NCBI GenBank assembly: GCA_949281375.1
Contig: CASDLT010000040.1
Coordinates: 62,001 to 126,000, forward strand
Source of the DNA: an uncultured Nitrosomonas sp.
GTDB taxonomy: Bacteria; Pseudomonadota; Gammaproteobacteria; Burkholderiales; Nitrosomonadaceae
DNA length: 64,000 nucleotides
Direction: 5' to 3'
Below, piece after piece: positions 2,263 to 57,503 of the stretch. The notes under the pieces were generated by a model, which worked only from the letters and a program-made list of their open reading frames with translations, searched no databases and was not told where the DNA came from. The first letter of the stretch is position 1. Every line of letters begins with the position of its first letter. The position numbers were made by a program, and so were the translations under genes.

Positions 2263-2283
2263 CAGCTGCCGTCAAGCCAGTTT

Positions 2284-5377: not shown

Positions 5378-5436
5378 GATAGGTTCCAATCCGATTGTGA
5401 ATGATTTGCTGTATGGTCTGTAGAAAGTAAAACCCG

Positions 5437-7824: not shown

Positions 7825-7834
7825 TCAAGACTAA

Positions 7835-8632: not shown

Positions 8633-8665
8633 ATATTGCCTCTCTAACTCAATGGATTACCCGGA

Positions 8666-9376: not shown

Positions 9377-9406
9377 TTACCCGGGTGAGTTTTATCTGAA
9401 TTGCCT

Positions 9407-10615: not shown

Positions 10616-10617
10616 AT

Positions 10618-12961: not shown

Positions 12962-12968
12962 GATCAGG

Positions 12969-14451: not shown

Positions 14452-14452
14452 T

Positions 14453-15487: not shown

Positions 15488-15611
15488 ACTGCACCATGCC
15501 CTTTCACAAATTCGGGGGAATTGATTATTTTTACGTCAATGAACTGAGAAGAGAGTTTTATGAGGTACAACGCTGCAAAACCAATTTCAGACGACAGACT
15601 ATCCGGATATC

Positions 15612-33628: not shown

Positions 33629-33637
33629 TGACTGGTC

Positions 33638-34822: not shown

Positions 34823-36510
34823 TGGAGACAACGCTCATCCCGGAAAATAAGCCACCGATCAACCTGAATGATCTGATCGGTGCAAGAAAAAGAGCCTTGA
34901 GTCAGGGCATTTCAGTGATTCAGGCTTTGGAAGACGCCGGCGGCTATACGCCGGATGAATTGACCCAGCAGCTCGGACAATTGTTGCACATGCCTGCGCT
35001 GGAGATGAAAACGATCCATACACTGACGCCGGCATTCGACATGTTGCCCTTTGCCGAAGCCATCATTCATGAATGTGCGTTGTTTCGTCATGAACAGCGT
35101 TATCTGCTCGCGGTCAGCAACCCCTTTTCTCATAAATTACGCGCCTGGGCGGAAGAGCGTTTCAATCTGCCGGTGGAATGGCGTATCGTGCATCCGGGTG
35201 ATTTAACCGCATTCTTTGCTCAGCAGGAAAAAACCATGCGCGCCATGGATCAGGTTCTGCACACGACCGAGCTGGACAAGATGCAAAGCGGTATTGAAGA
35301 TTTATCGCTGAAAAGTATCAACGAAGGCACCAGCCAAGTCGTCAGGCTAGTTCATTCTACGCTCTACGATGCCCATAAATCCCAGGCCAGTGACATTCAT
35401 CTGGAGATGACGGTCGGTGCGCTTTCGATCAAATACCGCATCGATGGCGTGTTGACATCGATCGGCGTGATTCAGGGCGGAGATCTGGCCGAGCAGGTAA
35501 TCTCCCGCATCAAAGTCATGTCCGAACTGGACATTGCGGAACGCCGCGTACCGCAGGATGGCCGCTTCAAGATCTCCATCCAAGGAAGGGAAATCGATTT
35601 CCGCGTCTCGATCATGCCAAGCATTTTCGGTGAAGATGCGGTATTGCGTATTCTTGATCGCCAAGCGCTGTCCGATCATATTGAAGGGTTGACGTTGAAT
35701 CAGTTAGGATTCAATGCGGCGGCCATCGCGAGCATCCGCCGGCTGAGTGCGGAACCTTATGGCATGCTGCTGGTAACTGGACCGACGGGCAGCGGCAAGA
35801 CCACATCTTTGTATGCCGCGATTTCCGAAGTCAACAAAGGCAGTGATAAGATCATTACCATCGAGGATCCGATCGAGTATCAACTGCCGGGCGTGCTGCA
35901 AATTCCCGTCAATGAGAAAAAAGGACTGACCTTTGCACGCGGCTTGCGTTCGATATTGCGGCATGATCCGGACAAGATCATGGTCGGAGAGATCCGCGAC
36001 GCCGAAACTGCGCAGATTGCGATCCAGGCCGCGCTGACCGGACATTTGGTATTCACGACCGTGCATGCCAATAACGTGTTTGACGTCATTGGCCGTTTTT
36101 CACATATGGGGGTCGATCCTTACAGTTTCGTATCGGCATTGAATGGAATTGCTGCGCAGCGGCTGGTACGCCTGTTATGCCCGCATTGTTCGGTCGACGA
36201 GCAGCCGACCGAGGAATTGCTGACGGATTCAGGAATTCCGGCCGATACCGTGAATCAATACCATTTTCGCAGTGGCAAGGGCTGCGGCCAATGCCGTGGA
36301 AGCGGCTACCGGGGCCGCAATGCGATTGCTGAAATTCTGCTCCTGAATGATGAAATTCGTGAGCTCATCGTGGCCCAGGAGCCTATACGCCGCATCAAGG
36401 AAGCCGCTCGCAACAATGGCACGCGTTTTCTGCGGGAAGCGGCGCTGGATATGGTCAAGCAAGGATTAACCAGTTTGGAGGAGGCCAACCGTGTCACGAT
36501 TGTGGCGTGA
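34822..36510 (+). CDS. gspE: Type II secretion/pilus assembly ATPase GspE
   Basis: A 562-residue hexameric ATPase. N-terminal MshEN-type domain (about 20-140), then the ATPase with Walker A GPTGSGKTT (about 320-328), Asp box (IITIEDPIEY), Walker B (KIMVGEIRDAETA) and His box (GHLVFTTVHANN). A zinc-binding module follows with CPHC and CGQC pairs. ATG 34822 is chosen because it overlaps the gspF stop; a TTG sits one codon upstream. It powers pseudopilus or pilus extension at the cytoplasmic face. Confidence 0.95.
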   Translation: METTLIPENKPPINLNDLIGARKRALSQGISVIQALEDAGGYTPDELTQQLGQLLHMPALEMKTIHTLTPAFDMLPFAEAIIHECALFRHEQRYLLAVSNPFSHKLRAWAEERFNLPVEWRIVHPGDLTAFFAQQEKTMRAMDQVLHTTELDKMQSGIEDLSLKSINEGTSQVVRLVHSTLYDAHKSQASDIHLEMTVGALSIKYRIDGVLTSIGVIQGGDLAEQVISRIKVMSELDIAERRVPQDGRFKISIQGREIDFRVSIMPSIFGEDAVLRILDRQALSDHIEGLTLNQLGFNAAAIASIRRLSAEPYGMLLVTGPTGSGKTTSLYAAISEVNKGSDKIITIEDPIEYQLPGVLQIPVNEKKGLTFARGLRSILRHDPDKIMVGEIRDAETAQIAIQAALTGHLVFTTVHANNVFDVIGRFSHMGVDPYSFVSALNGIAAQRLVRLLCPHCSVDEQPTEELLTDSGIPADTVNQYHFRSGKGCGQCRGSGYRGRNAIAEILLLNDEIRELIVAQEPIRRIKEAARNNGTRFLREAALDMVKQGLTSLEEANRVTIVA

Positions 36511-37324
36511 TCAGATTCAGGTTTTTCTTGCGCCTGAGCGGCTGGATTTAGCCCGTTTCTCGCGCGGGTTAAAACCGGTGCAAACGGCAAAGGCCACTGC
36601 GCATTGCCAGCCTTTGCAGGGTGTTGTCGCCTGGCAATCTGTCTTGCAGCAGTTGGAAAAAAATTTGACCGACGCCGCCGGTACAGAGCTGTCGATTATG
36701 TTATCGAATCACTTCGTGCGCTACGTGACGCTGCCTCCTCAGGCAGAGATCGCGAGCCCTGAAGAGGTCAAATCCTATGCTCATTTTCGCATGCGGGAAA
36801 TTTATGCTGAACGGATGGATGCCTGGGTGCTGAGCATCAGCGAATGGCATCCCATCCGGGGCGCCGTTTGCGCGGCGATTCCCAGGGTACTGATGACTCA
36901 ACTGGAAGAGATGGCGGCGCGACATCAAAGTAAACTCAAGAATATCGAGCCTTATCTGACGTCCGTCTATGATCATTGGCAAAAGCTGCTGAATGGCAAT
37001 ACGCTATACTTCACCGTGATAGAAACCGGCAGGATCTGCGTTGCCATTCTGATCAATGGAATCTGGCACAGTATCCGCAATCAGCGGATTTTAAACAGTG
37101 TCACCGATGAATTACTAGCGATATTGGATCAGGAGGCGGTTTTTCTGGGCAATAAGGAAACTGTGGAGTCTGTCTATCTATTTGCGCCCGAACATTCGCA
37201 TTTGGCCTTACCGGCTGATTGTGGCTGGAACCTCGTGTCGATCCCAACTGAACAGATACCTATTCCGGCTCACTATCCATCGGTAAATGCCGGCAATTCC
37301 GAGATTGATCAATGTCCCGCCTGA
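36491..37324 (+). CDS. PilM/GspL-N-like (MshI-like) assembly protein
   Basis: A 277-residue cytoplasmic protein with no membrane segment. Starts at GTG 36491 with a strong GGAGG site inside the gspE end (20-nt overlap). The segment LSIMLSNHFVRYVTLPPQAEIASPEEVKSYAHFRM resembles the actin-like N-terminal domain of PilM/GspL; the ATP-binding motifs are weak. The position after the ATPase and before a PilN-like gene matches the PilM-N-O-P order of type IV pilus and MSH systems. It should connect the ATPase to the inner-membrane ring. Confidence 0.65.
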   Translation: MSRLWRDQIQVFLAPERLDLARFSRGLKPVQTAKATAHCQPLQGVVAWQSVLQQLEKNLTDAAGTELSIMLSNHFVRYVTLPPQAEIASPEEVKSYAHFRMREIYAERMDAWVLSISEWHPIRGAVCAAIPRVLMTQLEEMAARHQSKLKNIEPYLTSVYDHWQKLLNGNTLYFTVIETGRICVAILINGIWHSIRNQRILNSVTDELLAILDQEAVFLGNKETVESVYLFAPEHSHLALPADCGWNLVSIPTEQIPIPAHYPSVNAGNSEIDQCPA

Positions 37325-37848
37325 AATTAAAATTTCCGTATCAGGAACAGTCAATTCCGCAGGTTGATTATGCGATATTGCTGATCGGTTTGCTGATCGT
37401 GATCGGTATTTTTATGCAATACCGGCATGTTACCGAAGAAGTCAATTACTGGAGCAGCCGGGTCGAGCGCCTCGAGAAACAACAGCAGCAGAAAAATGCG
37501 CCGCGCAACCGGTCAGCCCGTGTCAAAGAATTCAGCCAGGAAATCCGTAAAGAAATCGCGCAAGCCAACACGATTCTGGATCAACTGAATTTACCGTGGG
37601 AGTCGCTGTTTGATTCCATAGAATCCGCCTCGACTGAGCATATCGCTTTATTATCCTTGCAGCCGAATGTCGGTAATCGTACATTGCGCATCAGCGGTGA
37701 AGCCAGAAGCATGTCCGAATTGCTCGACTTTGTCGAAGCGCTGGAACGCGAAGCAGTTTTTGAGAATGTGCATTTATTGAACTATAAAATTAAGCAAGAC
37801 AATCCGCACCGCCCGATCATTTTTCTTCTGACAGCCACATGGATTTGA
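37312..37848 (+). CDS. PilN/GspL-C-like inner-membrane assembly protein
   Basis: A 178-residue protein with one N-terminal membrane helix (YAILLIGLLIVIGIFMQY) and then a coiled coil (NYWSSRVERLEKQQQQK) and a small ferredoxin-like domain with the ISGEARSMSELLDFVEALE segment typical of PilN (Fimbrial assembly PF05137). It overlaps both neighbours by 13 and 10 nt. It should form the periplasmic ring with the next protein. Confidence 0.75.
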   Translation: MSRLKLKFPYQEQSIPQVDYAILLIGLLIVIGIFMQYRHVTEEVNYWSSRVERLEKQQQQKNAPRNRSARVKEFSQEIRKEIAQANTILDQLNLPWESLFDSIESASTEHIALLSLQPNVGNRTLRISGEARSMSELLDFVEALEREAVFENVHLLNYKIKQDNPHRPIIFLLTATWI

Positions 37849-38432
37849 AACGCCTGAATACTGAAACACTGTCTGCGCAGTTGAATCAATGGTTGCCGCA
37901 GTTGCGCTGGCAAATCGGACGGCTCGGTACCCCCGGAAAGATCGGCATCGGCTTGCTCGTGGTCTCAGGTATTTATTTCTTTTCGGCGGTCGCGCCGCAG
38001 GAAACGATGTTGCAGCAACTCAAGGAGCGCGCCGAAACGTTACAGATCCAGGCTCAGAAACCCACTACGGGCGATGCCGAAGTCGGCAAAAAAATGACCG
38101 GCGATCAAGCGCTGCAGGCATTCTATGATTTCTTTCCGATGATCGACTCGTCGCCGTTCTGGATTCGTGAATTGGTGCGCATTGCGAAGAAACATAACGT
38201 GGAATTGAGCAGCAGCGAATACCGCCTGATCAATGAACAGGATGCCCGGTTGGCGCGCTATGAGATGGTATTGCCGATCCGCGGCAGTTATGCCCAGATT
38301 CGCGCTTTCATTGCCGATGCGCTCGAATCAGTGCCCGCGATAGCCATTTCCGCGATTGCAATCAAGCGCGACGTCGTGTCGTCGGATCGACTCGAACTGC
38401 GGCTCGAAATTAATCTTTTTCTGAACAAATAA
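37839..38432 (+). CDS. PilO/GspM-like inner-membrane assembly protein
   Basis: A 197-residue bitopic protein: a cytoplasmic start, one helix (IGIGLLVVSGIYFFSAV), a coiled coil (QLKERAETLQIQAQK) and a C-terminal ferredoxin-like domain with ELSSSEYRLINEQDARLARYEM and a PIRGSYAQIRAFIADALE stretch. Size, topology and position next to a PilN-like protein fit PilO/GspM. It probably heterodimerises with the PilN-like product. Confidence 0.72.
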   Translation: MDLKRLNTETLSAQLNQWLPQLRWQIGRLGTPGKIGIGLLVVSGIYFFSAVAPQETMLQQLKERAETLQIQAQKPTTGDAEVGKKMTGDQALQAFYDFFPMIDSSPFWIRELVRIAKKHNVELSSSEYRLINEQDARLARYEMVLPIRGSYAQIRAFIADALESVPAIAISAIAIKRDVVSSDRLELRLEINLFLNK

Positions 38433-38436
38433 CTCG

Positions 38437-39015
38437 ATGGATTCTGCTGAAAAGAAACGTAAACTGCTATTGGGTGGCGCGCTCCTTGCCACCTTGATCG
38501 CCGTGATTCTGGTCGAGGAAGAGCCGGATGAGGAAGGCGCAATCTCGTCTGCGGTCGAGCCGCTGCAATCCGCGAAATCAGGCAATGACCGTAACAAAGC
38601 ACAGGAAAAGAATACCGAATACCTGGACATCAGCAAGCTCGGCCAGCGAACATTCGATCCATCGGCCGGCAAGCTGTTTGTCTCCAAGAACTGGACTCCC
38701 AAAAAACCAGCCCTCACTCTGGAAGAACAGGCCGCCAAGGCCGAAGAACAACGCGCAAAAGCAGACGCGCCACCCCCCGCTCCCACCGCTCCCCCATTGC
38801 AATTCAAATACGCCGGTAAAGCGATTTCGGAAAATCAAACCTGGGTTTTTCTTTCCCGCTCAGGAGAAAATCACATCGCCAAGATCGGTGGAAAAGTGAC
38901 TGATCAATATCGACTGGACGCCATCAATGACACAGCAATCACCTTGACCTATTTGCCGCTGAATATCAAACAAACCCTCACCATCACTAACAAATTGGCA
39001 GGAAATATCCAATGA
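38437..39015 (+). CDS. GspC/PilP-like periplasmic connector protein
   Basis: A 192-residue protein: one N-terminal helix (LLLGGALLATLIAVILV), an acidic and Pro-rich linker (PPPAPTAPP, about 110-120) and a small C-terminal beta domain (PPLQFKYAGKAISENQTWVFL to the end) of the PilP/GspC homology-region type. Such proteins bridge the inner-membrane ring and the secretin. The stop overlaps the secretin start (ATGA). Confidence 0.7.
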   Translation: MDSAEKKRKLLLGGALLATLIAVILVEEEPDEEGAISSAVEPLQSAKSGNDRNKAQEKNTEYLDISKLGQRTFDPSAGKLFVSKNWTPKKPALTLEEQAAKAEEQRAKADAPPPAPTAPPLQFKYAGKAISENQTWVFLSRSGENHIAKIGGKVTDQYRLDAINDTAITLTYLPLNIKQTLTITNKLAGNIQ

Positions 39016-41330
39016 AAAGCTGGAAAATCATTGTTCTGAGCATATTGCTCGCGATAACGACCGGATGTGCAATCAATAACCGGACTTTCGGCACTCGAAA
39101 TATGGCATTTGATGACGGGCAGAAGCTAATTGCTGCGGGAAAATTTGAAAGTGGTTTGGAAAAACTCGAACAAGCTGCGCGTGAAGAACCTGAAAATCAG
39201 GAGATTCGCACTGTATTGATCCGGTTGCGAGAGGAAGTACTCAGTAAAATTCTCCTTGAAGCAGATAGTCAGCGCTTCTCTGGTAATTTGGATCAGTCAG
39301 AAAAACAATATCAACGTATCCTAAATGTTTATCCTTTTCATGAGCGTGCCAAGGAAGGCTTGGAGGCATTGCAATTAGAACGCCGTCATATCGCTGCTGT
39401 TAATTCTGCTAGGGAATTATTGGCAAAAAATGATTTAAGTAGTGCAGAAGCCCTTGTACGTGCGGTATTGCAAGAAAATCCTCAGCAATCTCATGCCCGG
39501 CAACTGATCACAGAAATCAATTCTCAATTGTCGCGTCCCGAGGTTACACATCTAGCACTGGAATCTGCTTTCAAAAAATCAGTCACGATGGAATTCAAGG
39601 ATACCGATCTTAAGTCAGTGTTTGAATTGATGGCGCGAACTGCAGGCATTAATTTTGTGTTCGACAAGGATATACGCCAAGACACCAAGATTTCGATATT
39701 TGTGAAGAATAACACCATTGAGGATATTCTCAAGCTGATCCTGACAACCAATCAGATGGCGTACAAAGTGCTGAACAATAATTCGTTGTTGATTTATCCG
39801 AATACACCGGCCAAGCAGAAAGATTATCAGGAACTGGTTGTGCGCAGCTTTCAGATAGCTTATACCGATGTGAAGCAAATGGTTGCGATGGTCAGAGGTA
39901 TCGTCAAAGCCAAGGATATATATGTCAATGAACAACTCAATCTTTTTGTGATGCGAGATACACTCGAAGCCATCAGATTGACGGAGCGACTGGTAACATT
40001 GAATGATTTGGCCGAACCTGAAGTTATGTTGGATGTGGCTGTTCTCGAAGTAACACGTAATAACAATTTTCTTGTGGGGCCGAAATTTCCTCAATCTGTG
40101 ACATTCAGCGGCTTAACCAGTGCAGCACCAGGGGCAGGTGCGATAACAGATATTGCAAGCCAGGCCATACTGAATCAAATTGGTTCTCAGAATTTAGGTC
40201 TTAAGAGTTTCGTCATTAGTAATCAGGCCGTGATTGATTTTGCCCAGAGCGTTACTAATGCAGATATATTGGCAAATCCCAGAATACGAGTAAGTAATAA
40301 AGAAAAAGCAAAAATTCACATTGGAACTAAACAGCCAGTATTTACGGCGAATGTTCAACCAGGGGTTAATTCAATCGTTACATCAACCCCAACGTTCATC
40401 GATGTTGGTATTAAGTTGGATGTAGAGCCACGAATTGGTTTGAATGATGATGTTACGATGAAAGTGACTCTTGAAGTTAGTAGCATAACTGGTGAAGTTT
40501 CCGGTCCTTCTGCAGGAGGTGCAACGCCCCCAAAAGCCCCCATACTAGGAACACGAAATACTGAGACTATGTTGACTTTAAAAGACGGAGAAACGCAGGT
40601 AATAGCAGGACTTATCCAAAATAACGATAAGCGAGCAGTAAATGGTCTCGCAGGCTTATTAAACATTCCTGGTTTGGATAGATTGACATCAAGTCAAAAG
40701 GTGGATAGAGAAAAAACGGAGGTTATACTATTAATTACTCCTCGAATTATCCGCAATCTTCCCAAACGAAATAACTTCGAAAGCGAATACCACTTCGGTA
40801 CCGCCAGTGAAGCCGGTAAGTTACCTGTTAAAATCGACAAAACCAAAGCGCAATCGCTGGCGATTACTCCGGGTGGTGTAGGCCAGGCTTCTGCACGAGG
40901 GGGGGCTAACCCGTTCGCAGCGCAGGTTGACGAAGATGCTCCGAATCCATTCGCGAGAGCAGCCGCGGCATCGGCATCGTCGACGCCGTCCTTGACGCTG
41001 CAGGCGCCGACCAATGTCGGACTGGATAAGGAGTTTTCGGTCAATGTCCGTTTGGTTGGCGCGAAAGCCACGACCAATACAGAGCTTCAGTTCAGTTACG
41101 ATTCCGGTTCATTCGAACTGCTGGATGGCGGGCCTAAGTCCGGTTCGCGCAGCATACGCCTGGGCAAGGATCAGATTGCCGGACTGGCGACGCAATTGCG
41201 CTTCAAAGTCATCGCCACTGCGGCCGGTACTGGGGAGGTCAGTATCCAAAGCGCTAACGGGGAAGATATTGAACATGGCGATGCGGTCGATGTCACATTG
41301 CCGCCACCGGCCACGATCAATTTTAAATGA
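39012..41330 (+). CDS. gspD: Secretin GspD-like with TPR head and cohesin tail
   Basis: A 772-residue outer-membrane channel protein. The N-terminus has a lipoprotein-like signal (ILLAITTGC). TPR-like repeats occupy about 30-170, an STN/N0-type domain (MEFKDTDLKSVFELMARTAGINFVFDK) about 190-260, an N1-type domain to about 350, and the secretin core about 340-600 with the conserved LGTRNTETMLTLKDGETQVIAGL region. A linker and a cohesin-like beta domain (about 655-772, SLTLQAPTNVGLDKEFSVNVRLVG) close the protein. This architecture is common in beta-proteobacterial secretins. The DNA from about 39.1 to 40.75 kb is markedly AT-richer than the rest of the gene. Confidence 0.9.
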   Translation: MKSWKIIVLSILLAITTGCAINNRTFGTRNMAFDDGQKLIAAGKFESGLEKLEQAAREEPENQEIRTVLIRLREEVLSKILLEADSQRFSGNLDQSEKQYQRILNVYPFHERAKEGLEALQLERRHIAAVNSARELLAKNDLSSAEALVRAVLQENPQQSHARQLITEINSQLSRPEVTHLALESAFKKSVTMEFKDTDLKSVFELMARTAGINFVFDKDIRQDTKISIFVKNNTIEDILKLILTTNQMAYKVLNNNSLLIYPNTPAKQKDYQELVVRSFQIAYTDVKQMVAMVRGIVKAKDIYVNEQLNLFVMRDTLEAIRLTERLVTLNDLAEPEVMLDVAVLEVTRNNNFLVGPKFPQSVTFSGLTSAAPGAGAITDIASQAILNQIGSQNLGLKSFVISNQAVIDFAQSVTNADILANPRIRVSNKEKAKIHIGTKQPVFTANVQPGVNSIVTSTPTFIDVGIKLDVEPRIGLNDDVTMKVTLEVSSITGEVSGPSAGGATPPKAPILGTRNTETMLTLKDGETQVIAGLIQNNDKRAVNGLAGLLNIPGLDRLTSSQKVDREKTEVILLITPRIIRNLPKRNNFESEYHFGTASEAGKLPVKIDKTKAQSLAITPGGVGQASARGGANPFAAQVDEDAPNPFARAAAASASSTPSLTLQAPTNVGLDKEFSVNVRLVGAKATTNTELQFSYDSGSFELLDGGPKSGSRSIRLGKDQIAGLATQLRFKVIATAAGTGEVSIQSANGEDIEHGDAVDVTLPPPATINFK

Positions 41331-41839
41331 TGGCTTCGTTTCGATGGATGAAACGGCATCGAGGATTCACGCTGATCGAATTGATGATCGTGGTCGCCAT
41401 CATGGCAATTCTGGCTACCGCAGCGTTACCATTCCGCGAAATGATGGTCAAGCGTGAAAAGGAGCAGGAATTGCGCACCGCGCTGCGGCAGATCAGAACA
41501 GCCATCGACGCTTATAAACAGGCAGCGGACGATGGCCGCGTCGCCAAAAAAGCCGATGAAACCGGTTATCCGCCCCGGTTGGAAGAGTTATTCATCGGCG
41601 TACCCGATATCAAAAGCACCGACAAGAAAGTCATTTATTTTCTGCGCCGCCTGCCGCGGGATCCGATGTTCGTCGAGCCAGATCTCGTTGGCGCTACAGT
41701 CACGCCTGCTGTCGATACCTGGGGGAAACGCAGTTATGAAAGCCCTTTTGACAGCCCCAAGGCAGGCGATGACGTGTATGACGTCTTTTCCATGTCCGAA
41801 ACCATCGGTTTGAATGGCATTCCGTACCGGGAGTGGTAG
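41327..41839 (+). CDS. Pseudopilin (GspG/H-like)
   Basis: A 170-residue type IV pilin-like protein. Cleavage motif RG|FTLIELMIVVAIMAILATAALP with Glu5 present, then a long helix (MMVKREKEQELRTALRQIRTAIDAYKQAADDG) and a C-terminal domain ending PYREW. ATG 41327 and 41330 are tandem and overlap the gspD stop. It and the next two genes encode the minor or accessory pseudopilins of the apparatus. Confidence 0.88.
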   Translation: MMASFRWMKRHRGFTLIELMIVVAIMAILATAALPFREMMVKREKEQELRTALRQIRTAIDAYKQAADDGRVAKKADETGYPPRLEELFIGVPDIKSTDKKVIYFLRRLPRDPMFVEPDLVGATVTPAVDTWGKRSYESPFDSPKAGDDVYDVFSMSETIGLNGIPYREW

Positions 41840-41844
41840 AGTTT

Positions 41845-42228
41845 ATGAGCAAAGAGTGGCGGCAGAAAGGTTTCACGCTCATCGAGTTGTTGGTGGTCAT
41901 GGCGATTATTGCAACGTTATTGACCATCGTCGCGCCGCGTTATTTCAATTCCCTGGAGAAAGCCAAAGAATCCGTGCTGCGGCAGGATCTGGGCATCATG
42001 CGCAATGCCATCGATCAATTTTATTCGGATTTCGGTAAATATCCGCTCGATCTGCAGGAACTGGTTGACAAAGGCTATATGCGCAACCTGCCAACGGATC
42101 CTTTTACCGAACGAAAGGATAGCTGGGTCGAAGTGCCTCCCAAGAATCTGACTGAGGCCGGCGTCTACGATGTGCACAGCGGTTACAATGGACGGGCGTC
42201 AGACGGTACGTTCTATGAAGAATGGTAA
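41845..42228 (+). CDS. Pseudopilin (GspG-like)
   Basis: A 127-residue type IV pilin-like protein. Cleavage motif KG|FTLIELLVVMAIIATLLTIVAP with Glu5, helix (SLEKAKESVLRQDLGIMRNAIDQFYSDFGKYP) and a short C-terminal domain with LQELVDKGYMRNLPTDPF and an ending FYEEW. ATG 41845 is preferred to a GTG four codons upstream. It resembles major pseudopilins more than minor ones. Confidence 0.88.
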   Translation: MSKEWRQKGFTLIELLVVMAIIATLLTIVAPRYFNSLEKAKESVLRQDLGIMRNAIDQFYSDFGKYPLDLQELVDKGYMRNLPTDPFTERKDSWVEVPPKNLTEAGVYDVHSGYNGRASDGTFYEEW

Positions 42229-43228
42229 TAGCCCGTATTCGTCATTGATTAGCACTCCTGCGCATTCACAACAGGGTTTCGTGTATCTATGGGCATTGTT
42301 TTCGGTGGTGCTGGCGGGAGTGGCCATGGCTGGCGCCGGGCAGATGTGGCAGGTGAAATCCCAACGGGACAAGGAGGCGGAATTGCTATTCATCGGCGAA
42401 GAATTCCGCAAAGCGATCATGTCCTATCACAACGCCAACAAACAGTATCCAAGTACGCTGGAAGATTTGCTGAAGGACAGCCGTTCGATCAACATTAAAC
42501 GCCATTTGCGCAAGATATACGTCGATCCGATGACCAACACCACTGACTGGGGTCTGGTGGACGAACCGCCGCCGGCGACAACGGCTGCGACTTCGAAAGC
42601 TGATTCGGCACAAAGTAAAGGTTCAACCAGCGGCAGTGGCGGAACCTCATCCAGTAGCTCGAATTCTACCGCAGGTACCGGCAGCGCCAACTCATCGGCA
42701 ACCAATCCCAATCCATCGTCCGCGCTCAATCAAACCGGCAGTACCGGGCAGAATACGGCGACGGGTCAAACCTCGGCGACAAATCCAGGTTCGAATGTTG
42801 GCACGACCCCCGACAGCAAACCGCCCACCACCAGCAGTTCAGGCATGAGTTCCAGCATAGGCACGAAAATCACCGGCGTTTACAGCTTATCCGAAAGGAA
42901 ACCGATCAAGAAAGACCGCTTTCCGGAACAATATGCCAAATTCAAAGAGGCATTGAATTACCGCGACTGGCAATTCGTCTATAAGCCGGGTGCCGGCACA
43001 TCGGACAAGAGCGGAACAGGGAGTGGATCCTCTGCTTCTTCGCCAAAATCTGGTGGTGCAGCAGCAAACTCGCCATTTTCGCCATCAACATCGCCATCTT
43101 CCGGCAGGGGATCGTCATCGTCACCGGGCGCATCGACTGGTACTTCGCCATTTGGCTCGCCTTCTCAGCCTTCGGCGCCCGGAGGCGGCGCCAGCTCGCC
43201 GTTTGGATCTTCTTCGAATGATGATTGA
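42215..43228 (+). CDS. Atypical pseudopilin-like protein with long Ser/Gly-rich tail
   Basis: A 337-residue protein; ATG 42215 overlaps the previous gene by 14 nt. The N-terminal QQGFVYLWALFSVVLAGVAMAG has the Gly-Phe of a prepilin site and a hydrophobic helix, but no Glu at mature position 5 (Leu is there). The following segment (KDKEAELLFIGEEFRKAIMSYHNANKQYP in spirit, with core EEFRKAIMSYH) is pilin-like. From about 125 on, two long Ser/Gly/Thr/Pro-rich low-complexity stretches surround a small conserved block (GTKITGVYSLSERKPIKKDRF to DWQFVYKP). Lack of Glu5 is a feature of GspK-type tip pseudopilins, so a tip role is possible. Confidence 0.65.
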   Translation: MKNGNSPYSSLISTPAHSQQGFVYLWALFSVVLAGVAMAGAGQMWQVKSQRDKEAELLFIGEEFRKAIMSYHNANKQYPSTLEDLLKDSRSINIKRHLRKIYVDPMTNTTDWGLVDEPPPATTAATSKADSAQSKGSTSGSGGTSSSSSNSTAGTGSANSSATNPNPSSALNQTGSTGQNTATGQTSATNPGSNVGTTPDSKPPTTSSSGMSSSIGTKITGVYSLSERKPIKKDRFPEQYAKFKEALNYRDWQFVYKPGAGTSDKSGTGSGSSASSPKSGGAAANSPFSPSTSPSSGRGSSSSPGASTGTSPFGSPSQPSAPGGGASSPFGSSSNDD

Positions 43229-50232: not shown

Positions 50233-51537
50233 TCAGAAGAGGTACCTCAAATTAATGCCGCCGCCCCAATCCGGGCTGCGATCTGAAAAGCCTTTCAAGC
50301 CGTAGATGTTGAGTCTGAATTGATTGCTGACGCGTTGTGACAGATAAAGCGAGAGGTCTCTGCTATCCTCCAGCCTGACTGGCGATTGTCCCATATTGTA
50401 GCTTGTGCCCAGCGTCACGCTGTCGGACATGCGGTAAGCCACGCCAGCAGCGCCATACAAGACATTATGGAATGTCAGACCGGAAGGATTCCCCAGTATG
50501 CGGTAACCAAATGTTGCGCTGAAAATGAATCTGGACATGGTCTTATATAAATCACCCTGAATCGCGTAATCAATTTGGCCAGTTCCCAGATTATGCTTCG
50601 CACTGGCGGTGGGAATCTTGAGGCGAGCGGTAATATCGAAGGCGATTCCTGACGGGGCATGATCGAGCATATTGTAACTAAAGGCGGTGACGACATCGCC
50701 GAGCCCGGATTGAGTTGTGCTCCTGAGGCCGGATTCGGTTCCCAGCGGAATACCGCCCACGAGAGCCAGAGCAGCAGTTTTGTTCTGCCTCAAGGGAGTG
50801 TCATTGTCATCTGATGAATCACTGTCATTGCTGCCGTTATCATCATTTCCACCGCCGCTGCCACTGTTACCTCCATCGTCGCCACCGCCGTCGCTACCAC
50901 TATTTCCACCGTCACCGCCACCGCTACCACTATTTCCACCGTCATCGCCACCGCCACCGCTACCACTATTTCCGCCGTCATCGTCACCGCCGCCACTGCC
51001 GCTGTTACCGCCGTCATCGTCGCCGCCACCACTGCCGCTGTTGCCGCCGTCATCGTCGCCACCGCCGCTGCCGCTGTTATCGTCATCGTCATCACCGCTA
51101 CCGTTGCCTCCGGAGCCGGAATTGCCGCCCGAGCTGGAATTGTCTTTGTTTCTGCCTGGGTTTTCCCCAGAACAATCCTCGCTGGCTTCATCACAAACGA
51201 CGATACCGCCGCCTATGCTTGAACCGCCGCCGATCGCACCGCCTCCGATGATGGTTCCGCGGCCATCGATACCGCCAATCCCCGGCCCCAATACATTCCC
51301 TGGCCCGGTGATGTTGAGATATGGAACGATGACTCTGAACGATGCGCGATCCTTATCGTAGCGGGCTGTGAAAGGCACATACCAGATGTCGGTGGAAGCA
51401 GCACCGCCATACTTGCCGGTGGTAAAGTCTGTGCCGGCACCGAAGCTGAATCCTTTAGCGCCGACGACGGTGGGGCTGCAAAGGAGGAACAGCAACAAAA
51501 GACGATTGATGGGTTGTAAAAAGACAAATGATTGCAT
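50233..51537 (-). CDS. Outer-membrane transporter-like barrel with Gly/Asp/Ser repeat insert
   Basis: A 434-residue exported protein if it starts at ATG 51537, which directly gives a good signal peptide (INRLLLLFLLCSPTVVGA|K); the frame runs 33 codons further upstream. The N-terminal and C-terminal parts (from about 255 on) have the amphipathic strand pattern and terminal Phe (NLRYLF) of outer-membrane barrels of the phenol-degradation/transporter type. Between them lies a Gly-rich stretch and then about 100 residues of a 12-residue GSGGGDDDGGNS-like repeat, encoded at 50821-51123. The acidic repeat might bind calcium. It is the third gene of the DUF6502/DUF5666 locus. Confidence 0.7.
   Translation of the reverse strand: MQSFVFLQPINRLLLLFLLCSPTVVGAKGFSFGAGTDFTTGKYGGAASTDIWYVPFTARYDKDRASFRVIVPYLNITGPGNVLGPGIGGIDGRGTIIGGGAIGGGSSIGGGIVVCDEASEDCSGENPGRNKDNSSSGGNSGSGGNGSGDDDDDNSGSGGGDDDGGNSGSGGGDDDGGNSGSGGGDDDGGNSGSGGGGDDGGNSGSGGGDGGNSGSDGGGDDGGNSGSGGGNDDNGSNDSDSSDDNDTPLRQNKTAALALVGGIPLGTESGLRSTTQSGLGDVVTAFSYNMLDHAPSGIAFDITARLKIPTASAKHNLGTGQIDYAIQGDLYKTMSRFIFSATFGYRILGNPSGLTFHNVLYGAAGVAYRMSDSVTLGTSYNMGQSPVRLEDSRDLSLYLSQRVSNQFRLNIYGLKGFSDRSPDWGGGINLRYLF
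50821..51123 (-). repeat. Coding tandem repeat (36-bp unit) in the transporter gene
   Basis: About seven imperfect 36-bp units encode the 12-residue GGDDDGGNSGSG motif, with shorter variants near one end. Such near-identical units are prone to slippage, so copy number may vary between strains. Confidence 0.75.
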
Positions 51538-51750
51538 GAACGTTGGCGGATGATTTTCAATGAGCGTGAGAGATAGTGACAGGAGGCTTGAAGAAGTGTC
51601 GATATTCCTACAATAATGGGTTATCTTTTCTTGCAAGAATAATACTAGATCTTTGAAAAGTAAATGAGTATTTCAATTTTGATGTGATATAAAAAAGGAT
51701 GTTTTGAGCGAGATGCTGCTAGCTCAATTTCATCATGATTTTGTGCTGGC

Positions 51751-53550
51751 TTAACGGTCAATTACGCGGTCATGGATGGGCCTGTCATGATGATGACTAT
51801 GATCACGAGCGCGATCGGGAATATCGATGGTATCGCGTACGCTATCCCGCAGATCATTGCTCGAGTTATCGCGCAGGTCAAGATTGTCCGGCTTCTCGGG
51901 TCTGTCTATCACTCGGTCGATGTGCGTGTGATCGATGCGCTTATCGTGATGTCCGCTATGATCGCGGTTCAATCCATCCCGTACATCCACATCCGCAGGT
52001 TTTTCCGGTTTGTCGTCCAGCTTATCGATTCTGTCCATCTGCAGGCGCTCATCCTGTGCTTTGCCGCCATCACGACCTGAATGATCCAGTTCTTTGAGAT
52101 CTCTCGAATGAGAATCGCCACCCGACGAATGATCCTTGCCTGAGCCCGAATCTCGATCGAGTTCCTTGCTGGAATCGTCTCTACCACCGCGACCGTGGCC
52201 GCTGCTGTCTTGGCTGGAATCTTTGTCCTCTTGCTTCGATTCCCTGTCGGAATCATTTCTGCTGCCTTTGCCGCTGTTATCGATTTGATTTTTTTCCATT
52301 CTTTCTTGAATTTGAATCGATAAATCCTGCTTGGTATCAATATGCTCAGCAATGATGCGCTGATCTGATCCTACCCGGCCGCTGATTTGGATGCGTTGTC
52401 CCAGCCGGAGCTCGTCCTTTCCATAAGCGGAAAGCTGGGTTCCGGAATCTACGGTGATGATCCGGTTACTTACGGTCAATTCTTTGCCATCAATTGCATG
52501 CACATATCCTTCGATGACAACTCTCTCGACGTTACCGAGGTTGTGGCGAGTAGGTTCAGGTTGAATATGCTGAGCCTTGATATGAGTACCTTCCCAGCGA
52601 CCTGCCACCTGTACTTCCATGCCTGGCGTGAGGGCGATCGCTGATGATTTGGGATCTTGATGGATACGCGTTCCATTGATTTCGAACCCATCGGCAACAA
52701 TTCCCGTCACATGCCCATTAATTTTGGCCTCTGCCTGCGGTGCGATTGCATCGATTCGTGACGCCATCACAATGCCGCCGGGCAATCGATGACCGCTGAC
52801 CTGCACCCAATCACCTGCCTTCAAGTTGAATAAGTGATCGTGCTGGCCGGCTTGGGCAACGTGGACGGTTTGTCCCAAAACATGCATTTGACGAGTCTCT
52901 GAATTCAGAATGCTGATCGGTCCAACCACGGCATGCATGACTGCAATGTTACGGGCTGTCAATTCGCGATCGGCTCCAACCGCATGTGCAGCAATGATTT
53001 GACCCACAGCCAGTTCGCGCAGGGTGGAGGGTTTTCCATCGACGGAAACCGGTGTGCTTGGGTCATAATGAATTTCCACGCCGTTGACGCATACACTTGC
53101 AAATCCGGTGATCGTGCCGACTATACCGGTGCCGCCGATTCCAGAATTGTCGACCGTATTTCCGGTGCCGCCAATTCCACCTCGCTCAGCATTGCCCGTG
53201 CCGCCGATTCCGCCGTCATGAAGACCCGTTCCGCCAATGCCCGAATCAGATGCGATGATTCCGGTGCCACCGATTCCGGATTGCGTGCTCGCCGATGAAT
53301 GAATTCCGGTTCCGCCGCTGCCGCCTGACTGAATGCCGGTGCCTCCAATGCCAGAATCCGATGCAATGACGCCGGTGCCGCCGATTCCTGATTGGTGAAG
53401 GAGTGCTGGATTAATCAGCGACGCGCTGACATCGCAGTTATTCTTTGCCAGTGCGTTGACTGAATAAATCAGGATCAGAAAAAAAATACCCATCACATAG
53501 ATAACATGTCGGGTAAGGCGGTATAACGTTGTCAATGCAATGAGAGCCAT
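51751..53550 (-). CDS. DUF5666-domain protein with GIGGTG repeats and charged tail
   Basis: A 599-residue exported protein. Hydrophobic N-terminus (residues 14-34, ending VNALA) followed by eight copies of a GIGGTG-type motif (about 54-143). Residues about 144-420 contain three to four DUF5666-like beta domains (for example VNGVEIHYDPSTPVSVDGKPSTLRELAVGQIIAAH and VIEGYVHAIDGKELTVSNRIITVDS). From about 425 the chain is highly charged and Ser/Asp/His-rich, ending with DHSHHHDRPIHDRV, which could bind metal. It follows the DUF6502 gene by 17 nt. I do not know a proven function for this combination. Confidence 0.75.
   Translation of the reverse strand: MALIALTTLYRLTRHVIYVMGIFFLILIYSVNALAKNNCDVSASLINPALLHQSGIGGTGVIASDSGIGGTGIQSGGSGGTGIHSSASTQSGIGGTGIIASDSGIGGTGLHDGGIGGTGNAERGGIGGTGNTVDNSGIGGTGIVGTITGFASVCVNGVEIHYDPSTPVSVDGKPSTLRELAVGQIIAAHAVGADRELTARNIAVMHAVVGPISILNSETRQMHVLGQTVHVAQAGQHDHLFNLKAGDWVQVSGHRLPGGIVMASRIDAIAPQAEAKINGHVTGIVADGFEINGTRIHQDPKSSAIALTPGMEVQVAGRWEGTHIKAQHIQPEPTRHNLGNVERVVIEGYVHAIDGKELTVSNRIITVDSGTQLSAYGKDELRLGQRIQISGRVGSDQRIIAEHIDTKQDLSIQIQERMEKNQIDNSGKGSRNDSDRESKQEDKDSSQDSSGHGRGGRDDSSKELDRDSGSGKDHSSGGDSHSRDLKELDHSGRDGGKAQDERLQMDRIDKLDDKPEKPADVDVRDGLNRDHSGHHDKRIDHTHIDRVIDRPEKPDNLDLRDNSSNDLRDSVRDTIDIPDRARDHSHHHDRPIHDRVIDR
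53122..53391 (-). repeat. Coding repeat encoding eight GIGGTG motifs
   Basis: Eight irregularly spaced units of the type SGIGGTG are encoded in the N-terminal region of the DUF5666 protein; the copy with GGSGGTG is the only one with a changed second residue. Confidence 0.75.
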
Positions 53551-53567: not shown

Positions 53568-54452
53568 TTATTTATCAGCAGTATGATCTTGAGGATCTTT
53601 GGGTTCTGCCGGATTGGGGGATTCCGCTGGTTCGCTGAAGTAATAAATTCCAAAGGTCATTCGATACCGAGGGCCATTTTCAAGGGCGTCGTTTTTTTCC
53701 AATTCAGCGGCTTCCTTGTTTATGGCAAGTAAGGATTCCATTCCAAGCGTTTCTGATTTTTCACCTAACAATTTGACTGAATCGGCGCTCAATTCATCGT
53801 AGTAGACGCTACGCTCCATGAATGGCTGATTTTCTTCCAATAAGTTGCTGGTTGCGGCGGCGGCATGATCATGCAGGTTGTGGCCAAAGAAGAATACTTT
53901 TTCATCAAAGCCATGCACCGGAATAAACGCAGCAGTGTTGAGACATACCCGTTTTTGCTCATCAAATCGGGCGACACCAAGCCTCAACCATTCGTCCAGC
54001 ACTACCCGCGAGCGAATGTCACAGCTCACGTTGGTGACAAGTCCTTCGAATGAAATGTCTCCGCCTTCCCGGATAAATCGCGGGAGTGGCTTAGGCTGAT
54101 TATTCTCATCGAGAAACCGCTCGTCACTTGTCCATAAACTGACAAGACGCGCACCCATTGAAATCGAATGCGGAGCTGCATCGGTATTGGTGCGGGCGCA
54201 GTGGCGCAATCGTCGAATATCCTTGCGGTGTATGCCGGTCAGTAGACTCAAGTGGCTGTCAGTCGAAGGTTTTCCTGCAATCCTGAATTCCTTGTCTGCC
54301 ACCTCTACAAAAATATCCTTCAGCATATCTGACAAATAAGTGTAAGTGATTCCTTTTGCAAGCATTAATTTGATGAGGGGACGCAATACACGACGCAAGG
54401 CATTAACCAGCGCGGGTGAAAGTATTGAAATCGAGGGAAGTGTGCCGTGCAT
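53568..54452 (-). CDS. DUF6502-family protein, possible transcriptional regulator
   Basis: A 294-residue cytoplasmic protein. The N-terminal third (ALVNALRRVLRPLIKLMLAKGITYTYLSDMLKDIFVEVADKEF with STDSHLSLLTGIHRKDIRRLRH, of which LLTGIHRKDIRRL is the core) has a winged-helix-like pattern and is the DUF6502 signature. The C-terminal half is mixed and acidic. These proteins are found beside DUF5666 genes in beta- and gammaproteobacteria and are probably DNA-binding. It is divergent from the cupredoxin-propeller gene; the 220-nt region between them contains a strong promoter framed by direct repeats, so autoregulation or control of the neighbour is plausible. Confidence 0.7.
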   Translation of the reverse strand: MHGTLPSISILSPALVNALRRVLRPLIKLMLAKGITYTYLSDMLKDIFVEVADKEFRIAGKPSTDSHLSLLTGIHRKDIRRLRHCARTNTDAAPHSISMGARLVSLWTSDERFLDENNQPKPLPRFIREGGDISFEGLVTNVSCDIRSRVVLDEWLRLGVARFDEQKRVCLNTAAFIPVHGFDEKVFFFGHNLHDHAAAATSNLLEENQPFMERSVYYDELSADSVKLLGEKSETLGMESLLAINKEAAELEKNDALENGPRYRMTFGIYYFSEPAESPNPAEPKDPQDHTADK

Positions 54453-54542: not shown

Positions 54543-54560
54543 GTGGGAAATTTTTACACA
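54543..54560 (+). promoter_or_regulatory. Operator-like direct repeat, copy 1
   Basis: GTGGGAAATTTTTACACA, 6 nt upstream of the -35 of the cupredoxin-propeller promoter. It matches copy 2 at 17 of 18 positions. Confidence 0.5.
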
Positions 54561-54565
54561 ATTGC

Positions 54566-54593
54566 TTGACATAAAATTTAACCTGTGTAATAT
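54566..54593 (+). promoter_or_regulatory. Sigma-70 promoter of the cupredoxin-propeller gene
   Basis: A perfect TTGACA (54566-54571) and TAATAT (54588-54593) are 16 nt apart. The start would be near 54600, inside or at the edge of operator-like copy 2, leaving a leader of about 73 nt. Confidence 0.55.
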
Positions 54594-54600
54594 GTGTTGT

Positions 54601-54618
54601 GTGGGAAATATTTACACA
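54601..54618 (+). promoter_or_regulatory. Operator-like direct repeat, copy 2
   Basis: GTGGGAAATATTTACACA, immediately downstream of the -10 and 58 nt from copy 1 start to start. Binding here would cover the transcription start, so repression is the natural reading. Confidence 0.5.
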
Positions 54619-54672: not shown

Positions 54673-56499
54673 GTGTTTAAAATGAATAAGAGCATTCAAA
54701 AAATTGCATATAGAACAATTTGTTCTTCGGCAATCTTAACGATGTTATCTGCAATGAATGCTTCAGCCGCGGATAACGAAATCAGATTTGAATTGACAGA
54801 CGATCCAGGTCGTTGGTTCGATACCGGAACAGCCGTGGCCGGCAATCGCTCGATTGCCATTGCCACCCCGGGCGTAAAAGTTAAGTTTTCCGGCAATTCC
54901 AACACAGTTCATACTCGATCTAGTTTGATTTATCCTACAGGTGCGGCTAACATGCCGTTCAACACAAAGCCCACCAAAGGTGGCGATGATGTCACGTTGA
55001 CTACCCCGGGTCTGTATGTATTCACATGTAGCATCCATCCTTACATGTTCGGCGCAGTCATAGTTGATGATCCAAGTACCCAAGGTCTAGATCTCGGCTC
55101 ATCGATCAGTCTGATCAATGGAATCAAGGTTCCGACCAGCAGCGATTTGGCTACACGCTTGCTGCGGACTTTCTTCATCGCGACCAATCCCCAGAACTGG
55201 CAAAACTATGCTAGCAACAAACCATGGCATGTCACTTATCCGGATGTGAATGTGCGTGTAGATGCCGGTGTCGTTAATTTGCCCCAGGTGTTGAACGCGC
55301 GTTATGGCAATGATATAGCTCTTGCTCCACTGAAAAACCCTACTACGCCAGCAGTCGGCGAAATTTGGGTAGCCACGCAGTTTGAAACGACCTCAAATAA
55401 ACGAAAACCTGGCACAGTTTCCAGAGTAGATGGAACATCCTGGCAGGTTACTCGAAAAGTAGCATTACCTTCGATCGACATGAATAATCCGCATAATATG
55501 TGGACTGATCGTGATCAAAAGGTCATTTATGCCACTCAATGGTTCGACAAGAAATTGACGGTTTACGACCGCAAGACTGGTGCTCTCATTCGCAACGTTT
55601 CAGTCGGTGAAGCACCTGCGCATGTCATGACACTGACCGACTCAGATCGGTTGCATATCACCAACAATGGCGATACCCGACCTGATTCAGTAATGGAATT
55701 ATCGCCGCTGGCGACGAATGTACTGCGTCGGATCAATATCGGGCGAGGCAATGCTCATGCTCATTGGATGAGCCATGACGGCAAAACCATGGTAACGCCC
55801 AATGTGCTCTCAGGTGATTCTACGCAATATAATTTTCACAGTGACTCGATTGACGCCATTACTAAAGTCAGCGGTCCGCTCAGCCATCCCCTGGCGACTG
55901 GCATGATGCCAGACGCCACCAAGTATTACGTGGCCAATCTGCTCGACAGCACCATAGCCGTCGTCAATATGGATACCCATAAGGTTGTCAAACACATCAA
56001 TTTGATTAAGGATTACAATCCCGTTACCGGCGCCATCAACGGACCGGTCGGTGCGTTGCCAATTCAGACCCCCGTGTCTCCGGATGGCAAGAATATGGTG
56101 ACTGCCAATACCCTGACGGGAACGATCACCGTGGTGGATACAAGCACTGATACCGTGGTTGCGATGTTGCCGTGTGATCCTGGTTGCCATGGTGTGCAAT
56201 ATGGCGCCAAGAAGGATGGCGGTTATTATGCGTATGTTTCCAGTAAATTTTCTAACCGGATGTTGGTGGTCGATCCAGATCCTAACAAGGATGGTAATCC
56301 CAAAGATGCCAAAATTGTCGGTACCGTAGGATTGTTCTCGAAAGCATCAACCGCCACGGATGATACTGTCAGCGGTAACCCAGGAATGGGCGGGCAAGGT
56401 ATACTTCCGATTCCAGTCGTCTATAACGGTTGGGTTCAAAATCTCCCTGCGGCCTGGGGAGATAAGTTGACCCCGGCGCAACGTAATCCGATTCAATAA
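54673..56499 (+). CDS. Exported cupredoxin/YVTN beta-propeller protein
   Basis: A 608-residue periplasmic protein. Starts at GTG 54673 behind AGGAGGG (ATG 54682 is an alternative). Signal peptide to about residue 32 (ASA|AD). Residues 35-135 form a cupredoxin domain with a complete type 1 copper set: His80, and Cys119, His122, Met125 in FTCSIHPYM. Residues about 200-560 are a YVTN-type propeller (VYDRKTGALIRNVSVGEAPAHVM, IAVVNMDTHKVVKHINL, ITVVDTSTDTVVAMLP). Blue-copper domains joined to propellers suggest electron transfer or copper handling in the periplasm; ammonia oxidisers are rich in such proteins. No enzyme activity can be assigned. Confidence 0.85.
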   Translation: MFKMNKSIQKIAYRTICSSAILTMLSAMNASAADNEIRFELTDDPGRWFDTGTAVAGNRSIAIATPGVKVKFSGNSNTVHTRSSLIYPTGAANMPFNTKPTKGGDDVTLTTPGLYVFTCSIHPYMFGAVIVDDPSTQGLDLGSSISLINGIKVPTSSDLATRLLRTFFIATNPQNWQNYASNKPWHVTYPDVNVRVDAGVVNLPQVLNARYGNDIALAPLKNPTTPAVGEIWVATQFETTSNKRKPGTVSRVDGTSWQVTRKVALPSIDMNNPHNMWTDRDQKVIYATQWFDKKLTVYDRKTGALIRNVSVGEAPAHVMTLTDSDRLHITNNGDTRPDSVMELSPLATNVLRRINIGRGNAHAHWMSHDGKTMVTPNVLSGDSTQYNFHSDSIDAITKVSGPLSHPLATGMMPDATKYYVANLLDSTIAVVNMDTHKVVKHINLIKDYNPVTGAINGPVGALPIQTPVSPDGKNMVTANTLTGTITVVDTSTDTVVAMLPCDPGCHGVQYGAKKDGGYYAYVSSKFSNRMLVVDPDPNKDGNPKDAKIVGTVGLFSKASTATDDTVSGNPGMGGQGILPIPVVYNGWVQNLPAAWGDKLTPAQRNPIQ

Positions 56500-56624: not shown

Positions 56625-57503
56625 ATGAGTACAGTAAACGATGATTCATCCAGCAGTAACAAACATTTTACATTTACGCTGGATGACAATGGCGATGTCA
56701 TCGCTTTTTTCGAAGTCGAAAATGGCGTAAGCACGGAAGAATCGATCGGAAGCGATGATATTTTTGAAGTCGATGGCACGACAATAACTCGTGTCAAATC
56801 AAGCTCCAATGACCCTGTGGAGATTGTCTATTCGGATCCCGAAGGAGATGGTACCTACGTCATCACGTCCGATTCCAGCAATACCGGCGGCGATGACAAT
56901 TCGGGCGGGGGCGGAAAAGGTTATAAATTCACCATCGCCGATGGCACAATCACTGAGGTTTTCGAAATCAAGGACGGCGAAGAAAAACCCGATCCCATTA
57001 GTGATTCCGAAACTTATGCTCTGGGCGATAACAACACTGTAGTGCGCACTGATTTATCAGAAATTGGTTCAGAAATTACCGTATACAATGATACCGATGG
57101 CGATGGCATTTATCATCGCTTCTCTGAGCAATGGGCGCCAGATACCTCCGGAGCCGGTCCATTCAAGATCGAGGATCGCCTAGTCTATACTGGCGACGAT
57201 GATAGCAACAAGATCGCTGTGCGCGATGGCGAAGATTGTCATGGTGGTGGCGGCAAGGATGATTTTGTGCTTCGTGAAGCCGGCAACTTGCGCATCGCAG
57301 ATTACAGCAACAGCGATGATGATCTGATCGTGTTCGATACAGGTCTCGGCTTGACCTCGAAAGAGGAAGTGCAAAGCTATGTCACTGATCTGCACTATGA
57401 AGGCGAAGATTTAGTCGTTGTTTTTGGCTCTGCTGCAACGGTTACGCTGGTGGGCGTGCCATCCGATCAAATTTCCTGGGATGATGTCTCAGTATTGAGC
57501 TGA
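56625..57503 (+). CDS. Acidic repeat protein with RTX-like C-terminus, likely type I secreted
   Basis: A 292-residue strongly acidic protein with no N-terminal signal. Two internal repeats: residues about 15-85 and 102-165 share the pattern FTLDDNGDVIAFFEVENG / FTIADGTITEVFEIKDG and SDPEGDGTYV / NDTDGDGIYH, with DxDGDG loops that may bind calcium. A Gly-rich bridge (GGDDNSGGGGKG) joins them. Residues about 205-292 look like a type I secretion C-terminus: one degenerate RTX nonapeptide (GGGGKDDFVL), a DLIVFDTGLG segment and a hydrophobic end (DDVSVLS). No secretion ATPase is near. The biological role is unknown. Confidence 0.65.
   Translation: MSTVNDDSSSSNKHFTFTLDDNGDVIAFFEVENGVSTEESIGSDDIFEVDGTTITRVKSSSNDPVEIVYSDPEGDGTYVITSDSSNTGGDDNSGGGGKGYKFTIADGTITEVFEIKDGEEKPDPISDSETYALGDNNTVVRTDLSEIGSEITVYNDTDGDGIYHRFSEQWAPDTSGAGPFKIEDRLVYTGDDDSNKIAVRDGEDCHGGGGKDDFVLREAGNLRIADYSNSDDDLIVFDTGLGLTSKEEVQSYVTDLHYEGEDLVVVFGSAATVTLVGVPSDQISWDDVSVLS

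Follow-up and report, generated by a model that had tools for sequence, protein, structure and literature searches.

The 608-residue protein studied here is encoded in the window, by which we mean the whole stretch of 64,000 nucleotides analysed from an uncultured Nitrosomonas sp., and it joins a predicted blue-copper (cupredoxin) domain to a seven-bladed YVTN propeller. On balance, we lean towards its being a periplasmic copper electron relay, with the propeller as a docking or substrate module. In favour of this explanation stand the conservation of the type 1 copper ligands, the electron-transfer-type fold, the seven-bladed propeller, the coupling of the family to multicopper oxidases (MCOs) and the AmoC of the own genome. 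Against it stand the occurrence of an MCO beside a stand-alone copy at only one locus of the own clade, neighbours that hint at a surface role, patchy presence among congeners, broken copies, the failure of the Pfam cupredoxin model and the presence of the propeller His/Gln pattern in a cupredoxin-free protein. The blue-copper-propeller fusion is a new combination of parts already known, and the more surprising result is the split MCO of the relatives.

The open reading frame occupies exactly the interval and strand assigned to it by an earlier sequence-only reading (Table 1). It starts with a GTG codon preceded by AGGAGG, and codon 4 is ATG; the single reverse-strand frame translated over the same interval shows stops throughout. 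The full-length AlphaFold2 model, built from 53 alignment rows, has a pLDDT of 92.8 and a pTM of 0.90. This alignment holds the window protein and 52 of the best-scoring 79 loci, with near-copies, partial proteins, L083 and L108 left out. The N-terminal helix of the model would be a signal peptide, with a cleavage site that is likewise predicted, and the protein would thus be secreted to the periplasm.

Table 1. Features of the cupredoxin-propeller gene and its surroundings, in window positions. Conservation is given as rows of the 53-row alignment; neighbour counts are taken over all 79 homologous loci, many of which have cut flanks.
Feature	Position	Strand	Evidence and remarks
Outer-membrane-like protein	50233..51636	-	DUF3187 18.3 bits, below cut-off; relative nearby in 21/79 loci, Nitrosomonas and Nitrospira
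DUF5666-repeat protein	51751..53550	-	PF18914 98.5 bits; relative nearby in 25/79 loci, Nitrosomonas and Nitrospira
DUF6502 gene, divergent	53568..54452	-	PF20112 105.3 bits; relative nearby in 21/79 loci
Two repeats GTGGGAAATWTTTACACA, at 54543 and 54601	54543..54618	+	Palindrome-like; flank TTGACA (54566) and TAATAT (54588), 16 bp spacing
Coding sequence, 608 aa	54673..56499	+	Signal-peptide-like helix, cupredoxin, linker, seven-bladed YVTN propeller; from ORF translation, full model and alignment
Signal-peptide-like N-terminus	54673..54768	+	aa 1-32; helix aa 6-27 in model; pLDDT <50 at aa 24-33
Cupredoxin domain	54772..55077	+	aa 34-135; predicted model, pseudoazurin/plastocyanin matches
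His80, putative type 1 copper ligand	54910..54912	+	52/53, 1 gap
Ligand loop C119-S-I-H122-P-Y-M125	55027..55047	+	Amicyanin-type spacing; C119, H122, M125 each 53/53
Seven-bladed propeller	55339..56463	+	About aa 223-597; blade 7 = strand 577-580 with strands 230-263; model strand list
His274	55492..55494	+	Start of innermost strand, blade 1; 53/53
His317	55621..55623	+	Start of innermost strand, blade 2; 53/53
His362-x-His364	55756..55764	+	Innermost strand, blade 3; H362 53/53, H364 52/53
Gln465	56065..56067	+	Innermost strand, blade 5; 53/53
C501-DPG-C505-H506	56173..56190	+	Blade 6; H506 53/53; C501 and C505 each 49/53
Gln575	56395..56397	+	Just ahead of innermost strand, blade 7; 53/53
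Downstream acidic protein	56625..57503	+	No Pfam/NCBIfam match; relative nearby in 24/79 loci

Residues His80, Cys119, His122 and Met125, which had been proposed as a complete type 1 copper site, are found at these very positions, and the full set is conserved in 52-53 of the 53 rows; the one gap, at His80, comes from L098, whose called start lies downstream of that position. Since the domain contains only one Cys (C119), it is not a CuA domain, and the four residues would bind a type 1 copper. The predicted model adopts the Greek-key cupredoxin fold and, when the cupredoxin and linker are modelled alone, has a pLDDT of 93.4; its structure matches include amicyanin and an archaeal cupredoxin as well as plastocyanins and pseudoazurins, the last two with a Z of about 11 over 88-114 residues. 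In a profile search with 44 domain rows, pseudoazurin 2ux6 came out on top (E 1.5e-6), and the cupredoxin domain of the Thermus scotoductus NirK, 6hbe, was matched as well (E 1.6e-4). By comparison, Pfam PF00127 gave 15.0 bits for the window protein, under its cut-off of 21.2, so that the domain is overlooked by routine Pfam annotation; we attribute this to limited sensitivity of the Pfam model and do not regard the score as a defining trait. The amicyanin equivalog TIGR02657 was not reached either (15.1 bits against a cut-off of 110.2).

Several known proteins share parts of this domain. The spacing of the CSIHPYM loop is that of amicyanin, and the predicted fold and 2His-Cys-Met set are those of amicyanin and pseudoazurin, 2ux6 being a pseudoazurin with an engineered amicyanin loop. 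However, these are single-domain carriers, whereas the window cupredoxin is fused to a propeller. In the three-domain NirK 6hbe, which carries an identical CSIHPYM loop, a cupredoxin is joined to a copper enzyme, and the Nitrosopumilus maritimus MCO 9cck has a C-terminal cupredoxin (9cck_A, Z 11.1 to the window domain), but the 6hbe and 9cck chains, of 451 and 409 aa, are too short to hold a propeller.

The claim of a seven-blade-like propeller after the copper site is borne out by the strand list of the full model, in which blades 1 to 6 span residues 273-310, 315-354, 361-398, 406-443, 463-500 and 505-553, and N-terminal plus C-terminal strands close blade 7; in blade 3, only short pieces of the innermost strand are assigned (361, 365-366). 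The YVTN repeat model TIGR02276 scores 37.5 bits, above its cut-off of 27.85, and the best solved match is the YVTN surface-layer protein 1l0q (Z 38.3, rmsd 2.1, 296 residues). Further matches are 6-phosphogluconolactonases, hydrazine synthase beta (5c2v, Z 33.1) and nitrous oxide reductases (best 5i5j, Z 31.8), with many unrelated propellers near Z 30. The propeller fold is thus common to the window protein, 1l0q and 5c2v, the latter two of which are not known to carry a cupredoxin. Fold matches were rejected as evidence of function, because hydrazine synthase beta and the lactonases also match at this level; hydrazine synthase beta itself was discarded as an identity at 31.3 bits on NF052340, far below the cut-off of 560.

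Within the propeller, five His and two Gln are nearly invariant and sit at, or just before, innermost strands, while the remaining His vary, H405 for instance being kept in only 31 of the 53 rows; this comparison used, besides the 53-row alignment, one from which three partial proteins and a YncE-like protein were left out. C501 and C505 probably form a disulfide, since the four rows without C505 are also those without C501. The His/Gln positions lie near what we take to be the copper-ligand places of nitrous oxide reductase, and they may form a shared site. A cupredoxin-free YncE-like YVTN protein on a Methylocystis plasmid (L036 8364-9470) has His/Gln at several matching positions, which means that the pattern is not unique to the cupredoxin-propeller architecture and that the propeller His cannot be judged against this protein as a negative control. 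The gene for this YVTN protein lies a few genes away from an MCO and cupredoxin-propeller pair.

These propeller data bear on the possibility that the protein is a pure electron carrier, whose propeller would be a docking scaffold with neither metal nor substrate of its own. We give this a minor but real chance: its best propeller matches are YVTN and lactonase propellers, led by 1l0q, and its cupredoxin matches are ordinary electron carriers, yet a scaffold has no obvious need for five His and two Gln kept nearly invariant near the starts of innermost strands.

The window protein had also been said to differ from multicopper oxidases, and on reading its translation the trinuclear motifs HxHG and HCHxxxH are indeed not seen. 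The coupling of the family to MCOs was found outside the window. The second copy in the own genome is a protein of 947 aa, in which Cu-oxidase_3 and Cu-oxidase_2 domains are followed by the cupredoxin and then by the propeller (L116 7949-10792, contig C28). Directly upstream of this fusion gene, with an overlap of 11 bases, lies a second two-domain MCO (L116 6880-7959), and the list of open reading frames places a response-regulator-like one just upstream of the MCO pair (6013-6732). The fusion forms fall on one side of a tree branch, so that fusions of the own-genome type may go back to one event. The arrangements in Methylocystis and Nitrospira are separate from it: on the Methylocystis plasmid a two-domain MCO gene, which keeps all four motifs in both domains, lies directly upstream of the cupredoxin-propeller gene; in Nitrospira loci L091, L103, L104 and L110 the gene directly upstream encodes an MCO whose length, about 660-710 aa, points to three domains; and in L108, also Nitrospira, the MCO and the cupredoxin-propeller read as one frame across a run of N. 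Among stand-alone Nitrosomonas loci, L058 (a N. communis MAG) has an MCO-like open reading frame of 329 aa that lies some 355 bases upstream of the copy and shares 26-30% identity with the query MCOs; no MCO turned up around the remaining stand-alone Nitrosomonas loci, so that, within the flanks searched, L058 is the sole case in the own clade.

The two chains of the fusion-type pairs have lost complementary copper motifs. Both domain-1 motifs are absent from all 31 fusion chains (B), which keep the domain-2 motifs HCHxxxHxxxxM (31/31) and H[TS]FHxHAH (30/31); conversely, the 29 readable upstream chains (A) all carry the two domain-1 motifs and lack both of those of domain 2. Among the fusion rows, L112 and L120 are of equal length and apparently the same contig, others are near-copies, the partner gene is missing at a contig end in L105 and L127 and truncated in L130, and that of L126, which begins in a run of N, was read separately. 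Because near-copies and one contig counted twice are included, the 29 pairs are not independent events; they span Nitrosomonas, Nitrosospira and one Nitrosocosmicus MAG (L113). The complementary loss, seen in every one of the 29 readable pairs with near-copies counted, implies from sequence that chains A and B would have one trinuclear site in common and work only together. Both the MCO parts of the fused relatives and the partner genes match type B two-domain MCOs (small laccases), from which the relatives differ in having their copper motifs split over two chains, and the window protein in having no MCO domain. Described two-domain MCO members are trimers, and a literature search for a heteromeric two-domain MCO retrieved nothing beyond a plant review. 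The paired chains would offer a clear-cut example, open to test, of a single metal site split between two gene products. One locus, L134 (G022), carries a tandem pair of MCO-cupredoxin-propeller fusions, and each of the two has an upstream partner of its own.

In these relatives the cupredoxin-propeller unit is either part of one chain with an MCO or the product of a directly adjacent gene, and we therefore propose that electrons probably pass there from the propeller side to the cupredoxin copper, and then through the MCO type 1 copper to the trinuclear site and to oxygen. The N-terminal cupredoxin would hold one type 1 copper and pass single electrons, while the propeller, through its conserved His/Gln, would either dock a partner or bind the electron source, which could be another metal or a small substrate. 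The window copy would be a stand-alone paralogue with the same cupredoxin-propeller unit; being without an MCO, it would have to pass its electrons to a separate partner. The suggestion that it could be an electron-transfer protein specific to ammonia oxidisers stands in part: the role is plausible, but the specificity does not agree with a wider taxonomic spread, as detailed below.

The surroundings of the gene offer a different hint. Its usual neighbours, namely, the DUF6502, DUF5666-repeat, outer-membrane-like and acidic proteins (Table 1), hint also at a surface role; the Nitrospira member of the outer-membrane-like neighbour matches Phenol_MetA_deg with 37.8 bits. In the window, this outer-membrane-like frame contains a long acidic Gly-Asp-Ser repeat insert, and other frames are open over the same interval as well, probably as an effect of the repeat. 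Between the divergent DUF6502 gene and the cupredoxin-propeller gene, the GTGGGAAATWTTTACACA repeats, together with TTGACA and TAATAT, are promoter- and operator-like in sequence; within 3 mismatches, GTGGGAAATWTTTACACA occurs at only two places in the window, and related sites at the same tolerance lie upstream of 12 of the 79 homologous loci (raw count). One reading would be a protein of copper storage, chaperoning or homeostasis at the cell surface, whose redox role would be secondary, a reading that could also draw on the signal-peptide-like start, the conserved His positions and the DUF5666 and outer-membrane-like relatives found in two phyla. We nevertheless regard it as quite unlikely, because a type 1 site that is complete, Met-ligated and strictly spaced speaks for electron transfer, and because relatives are coupled to MCOs.

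Nitrous oxide reductase (NosZ), whether of clade I, clade II or the lactonase-type clade III (L-NosZ), likewise combines a cupredoxin with a seven-bladed propeller bearing conserved His; however, its cupredoxin is a CuA domain with two Cys at the C-terminus, whereas that of the window protein is N-terminal, of type 1 and with one Cys, and its propeller has fewer conserved His. The difference in domain order and copper type noted in the sequence-only reading is thus real. The CuZ site is made of seven His, against five nearly invariant ones in the window propeller. Membership of L-NosZ was rejected, since the window protein scores 44.4 bits on NF052460, and the propeller alone 48.2, against a cut-off of 700; a genuine L-NosZ, L117, with its C-terminal CSHFC motif, reaches 767.5, and the cupredoxin-free Methylocystis YVTN protein scores above the window protein (97.6). 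A Nitrospira lactonase (L073:1140-2240) gave no L-NosZ match. Lactonase-type NosZ-like proteins have been described (PMC11033732). That the window protein is an enzyme of this kind, in which the propeller His would hold a reduced CuZ-like cluster fed by the cupredoxin, draws on the weak profile match and on the 5i5j propeller match, and is very improbable given the profile scores, the five His and the lack of CuA; a search for NosD found no match in the own genome, although no control genome reached the cut-off of that profile either.

The family is concentrated in nitrifiers. At E<=1e-40, it occurs, stand-alone or fused, in 32 of 37 genomes of the own genus, assigned to Nitrosomonas on the basis of the closest named relatives, and in none of 24 other genomes of the order, and a phylum-wide draw of 398 genomes returned two, the own genome and one congener. 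A copy with at least 62% identity over most of its length is present in 23 of the 37 congeners, one of these copies being broken (G030), and G008 (also seen as L056) has one intact and one broken copy. The relatives analysed are the best-scoring 79 distinct loci of 256 confirmed matching stretches, a choice that leaves distant forms under-represented. These 79 are mostly from Nitrosomonas, Nitrosospira and Nitrospira, and include two MAGs of 'Ca. Nitrosocosmicus', one labelled Nitrososphaera, two labelled Chloroflexi and one each with the labels Rokubacteriota, Acidobacteriaceae, Methylomirabilis, Methanoperedens and Betaproteobacteria. The archaeal membership may include binning errors; the gap in GC content between gene and flank is 6-8 points for L098, L105 and L113, and 2 points for L086.

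Specificity for ammonia oxidisers is too strong a claim in the light of PF02461, which we take to be the AmoA/PmoA family, archaeal AmoA presumably being another. Of 79 Nitrospira genomes, 45 have the family and 49 have PF02461, distributed as 32 with both, 13 with the family only, 17 with PF02461 only and 17 with neither (Fisher p 0.065, uncorrected for kinship), and on this table a simple link to ammonia oxidation within Nitrospira was rejected. These 13 of 45 family-bearing Nitrospira, together with the Methylocystis rosea plasmid copy, which is 43% identical, and the five of 37 congeners that lack the family, speak against exclusiveness. More broadly, PF02461 was found in 15 of the 31 genomes or records asked, many of them MAGs that may be incomplete, and in 0 of 7 genomes not labelled as nitrifiers (the Chloroflexi pair and the Rokubacteriota, Acidobacteriaceae, Methylomirabilis, Methanoperedens and Betaproteobacteria MAGs). 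The own genome is nonetheless that of an ammonia oxidiser, as its AmoC match (428.8 bits) indicates; PF02461 has no match in it, which is probably an assembly gap, since the AmoC matches are all at contig starts. A search of a phage collection gave no family match.

In a tree of 72 of the 79 loci plus three rows, whose root and several deep forks are unsure and in which the long Methylocystis branch (3.15) is unreliable, the window protein groups with its nearest named relative, from Nitrosomonas sp. JL21 (93% identity). The main Nitrosomonas/Nitrosospira stand-alone group adjoins the Nitrospira copies and a second Nitrosomonas group (L087, L088, L090) is placed elsewhere, a topology that suggests transfers. 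Decay, with the window protein as a paralogue of the MCO fusion that retains little of its function, would fit the broken copies and the absence of the family from some congeners, but is hardly credible for a protein with mostly 74-93% identity to named Nitrosomonas rows, complete ligand conservation and neighbours common to two phyla.

Ammonia oxidisers depend on periplasmic copper chemistry. A broader reading of the electron relay, which we consider unlikely when taken as a whole, is that the family forms a hitherto unrecognised periplasmic oxidase system of nitrifiers, composed of a two-chain MCO, a tethered cupredoxin and a propeller whose ligand would be either another metal or a small nitrogen substrate, nitric oxide for instance. 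As part of this same reading, one chain would contribute its domain 1 and the other its domain 2 to the trinuclear site, the latter chain also bearing the cupredoxin and the propeller, and the window protein would be a free arm of the system. Nitric oxide is a bold candidate, put forward because the enzyme that turns it into nitrite in ammonia oxidisers was reported as unidentified in 2020 (PMC6967387). Being concentrated in ammonia-oxidising bacteria and Nitrospira, and joined to MCOs in several lineages, members of the family are candidates for a side branch of the nitric-oxide-to-nitrite pathway. Their patchy presence argues against an essential step in that pathway, and the absence from five of 37 congeners, together with the broken copies in G008 and G030, makes an essential role unlikely. 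A literature search, whose coverage takes in few subscription papers, found no title or abstract opening that names the family.

Elsewhere in the window, the list of open reading frames shows a run at 1708-16961 that resembles an aryl-polyene type lipid or pigment cluster, and frames at 33194-43228 like those of a type II secretion/pseudopilin operon.
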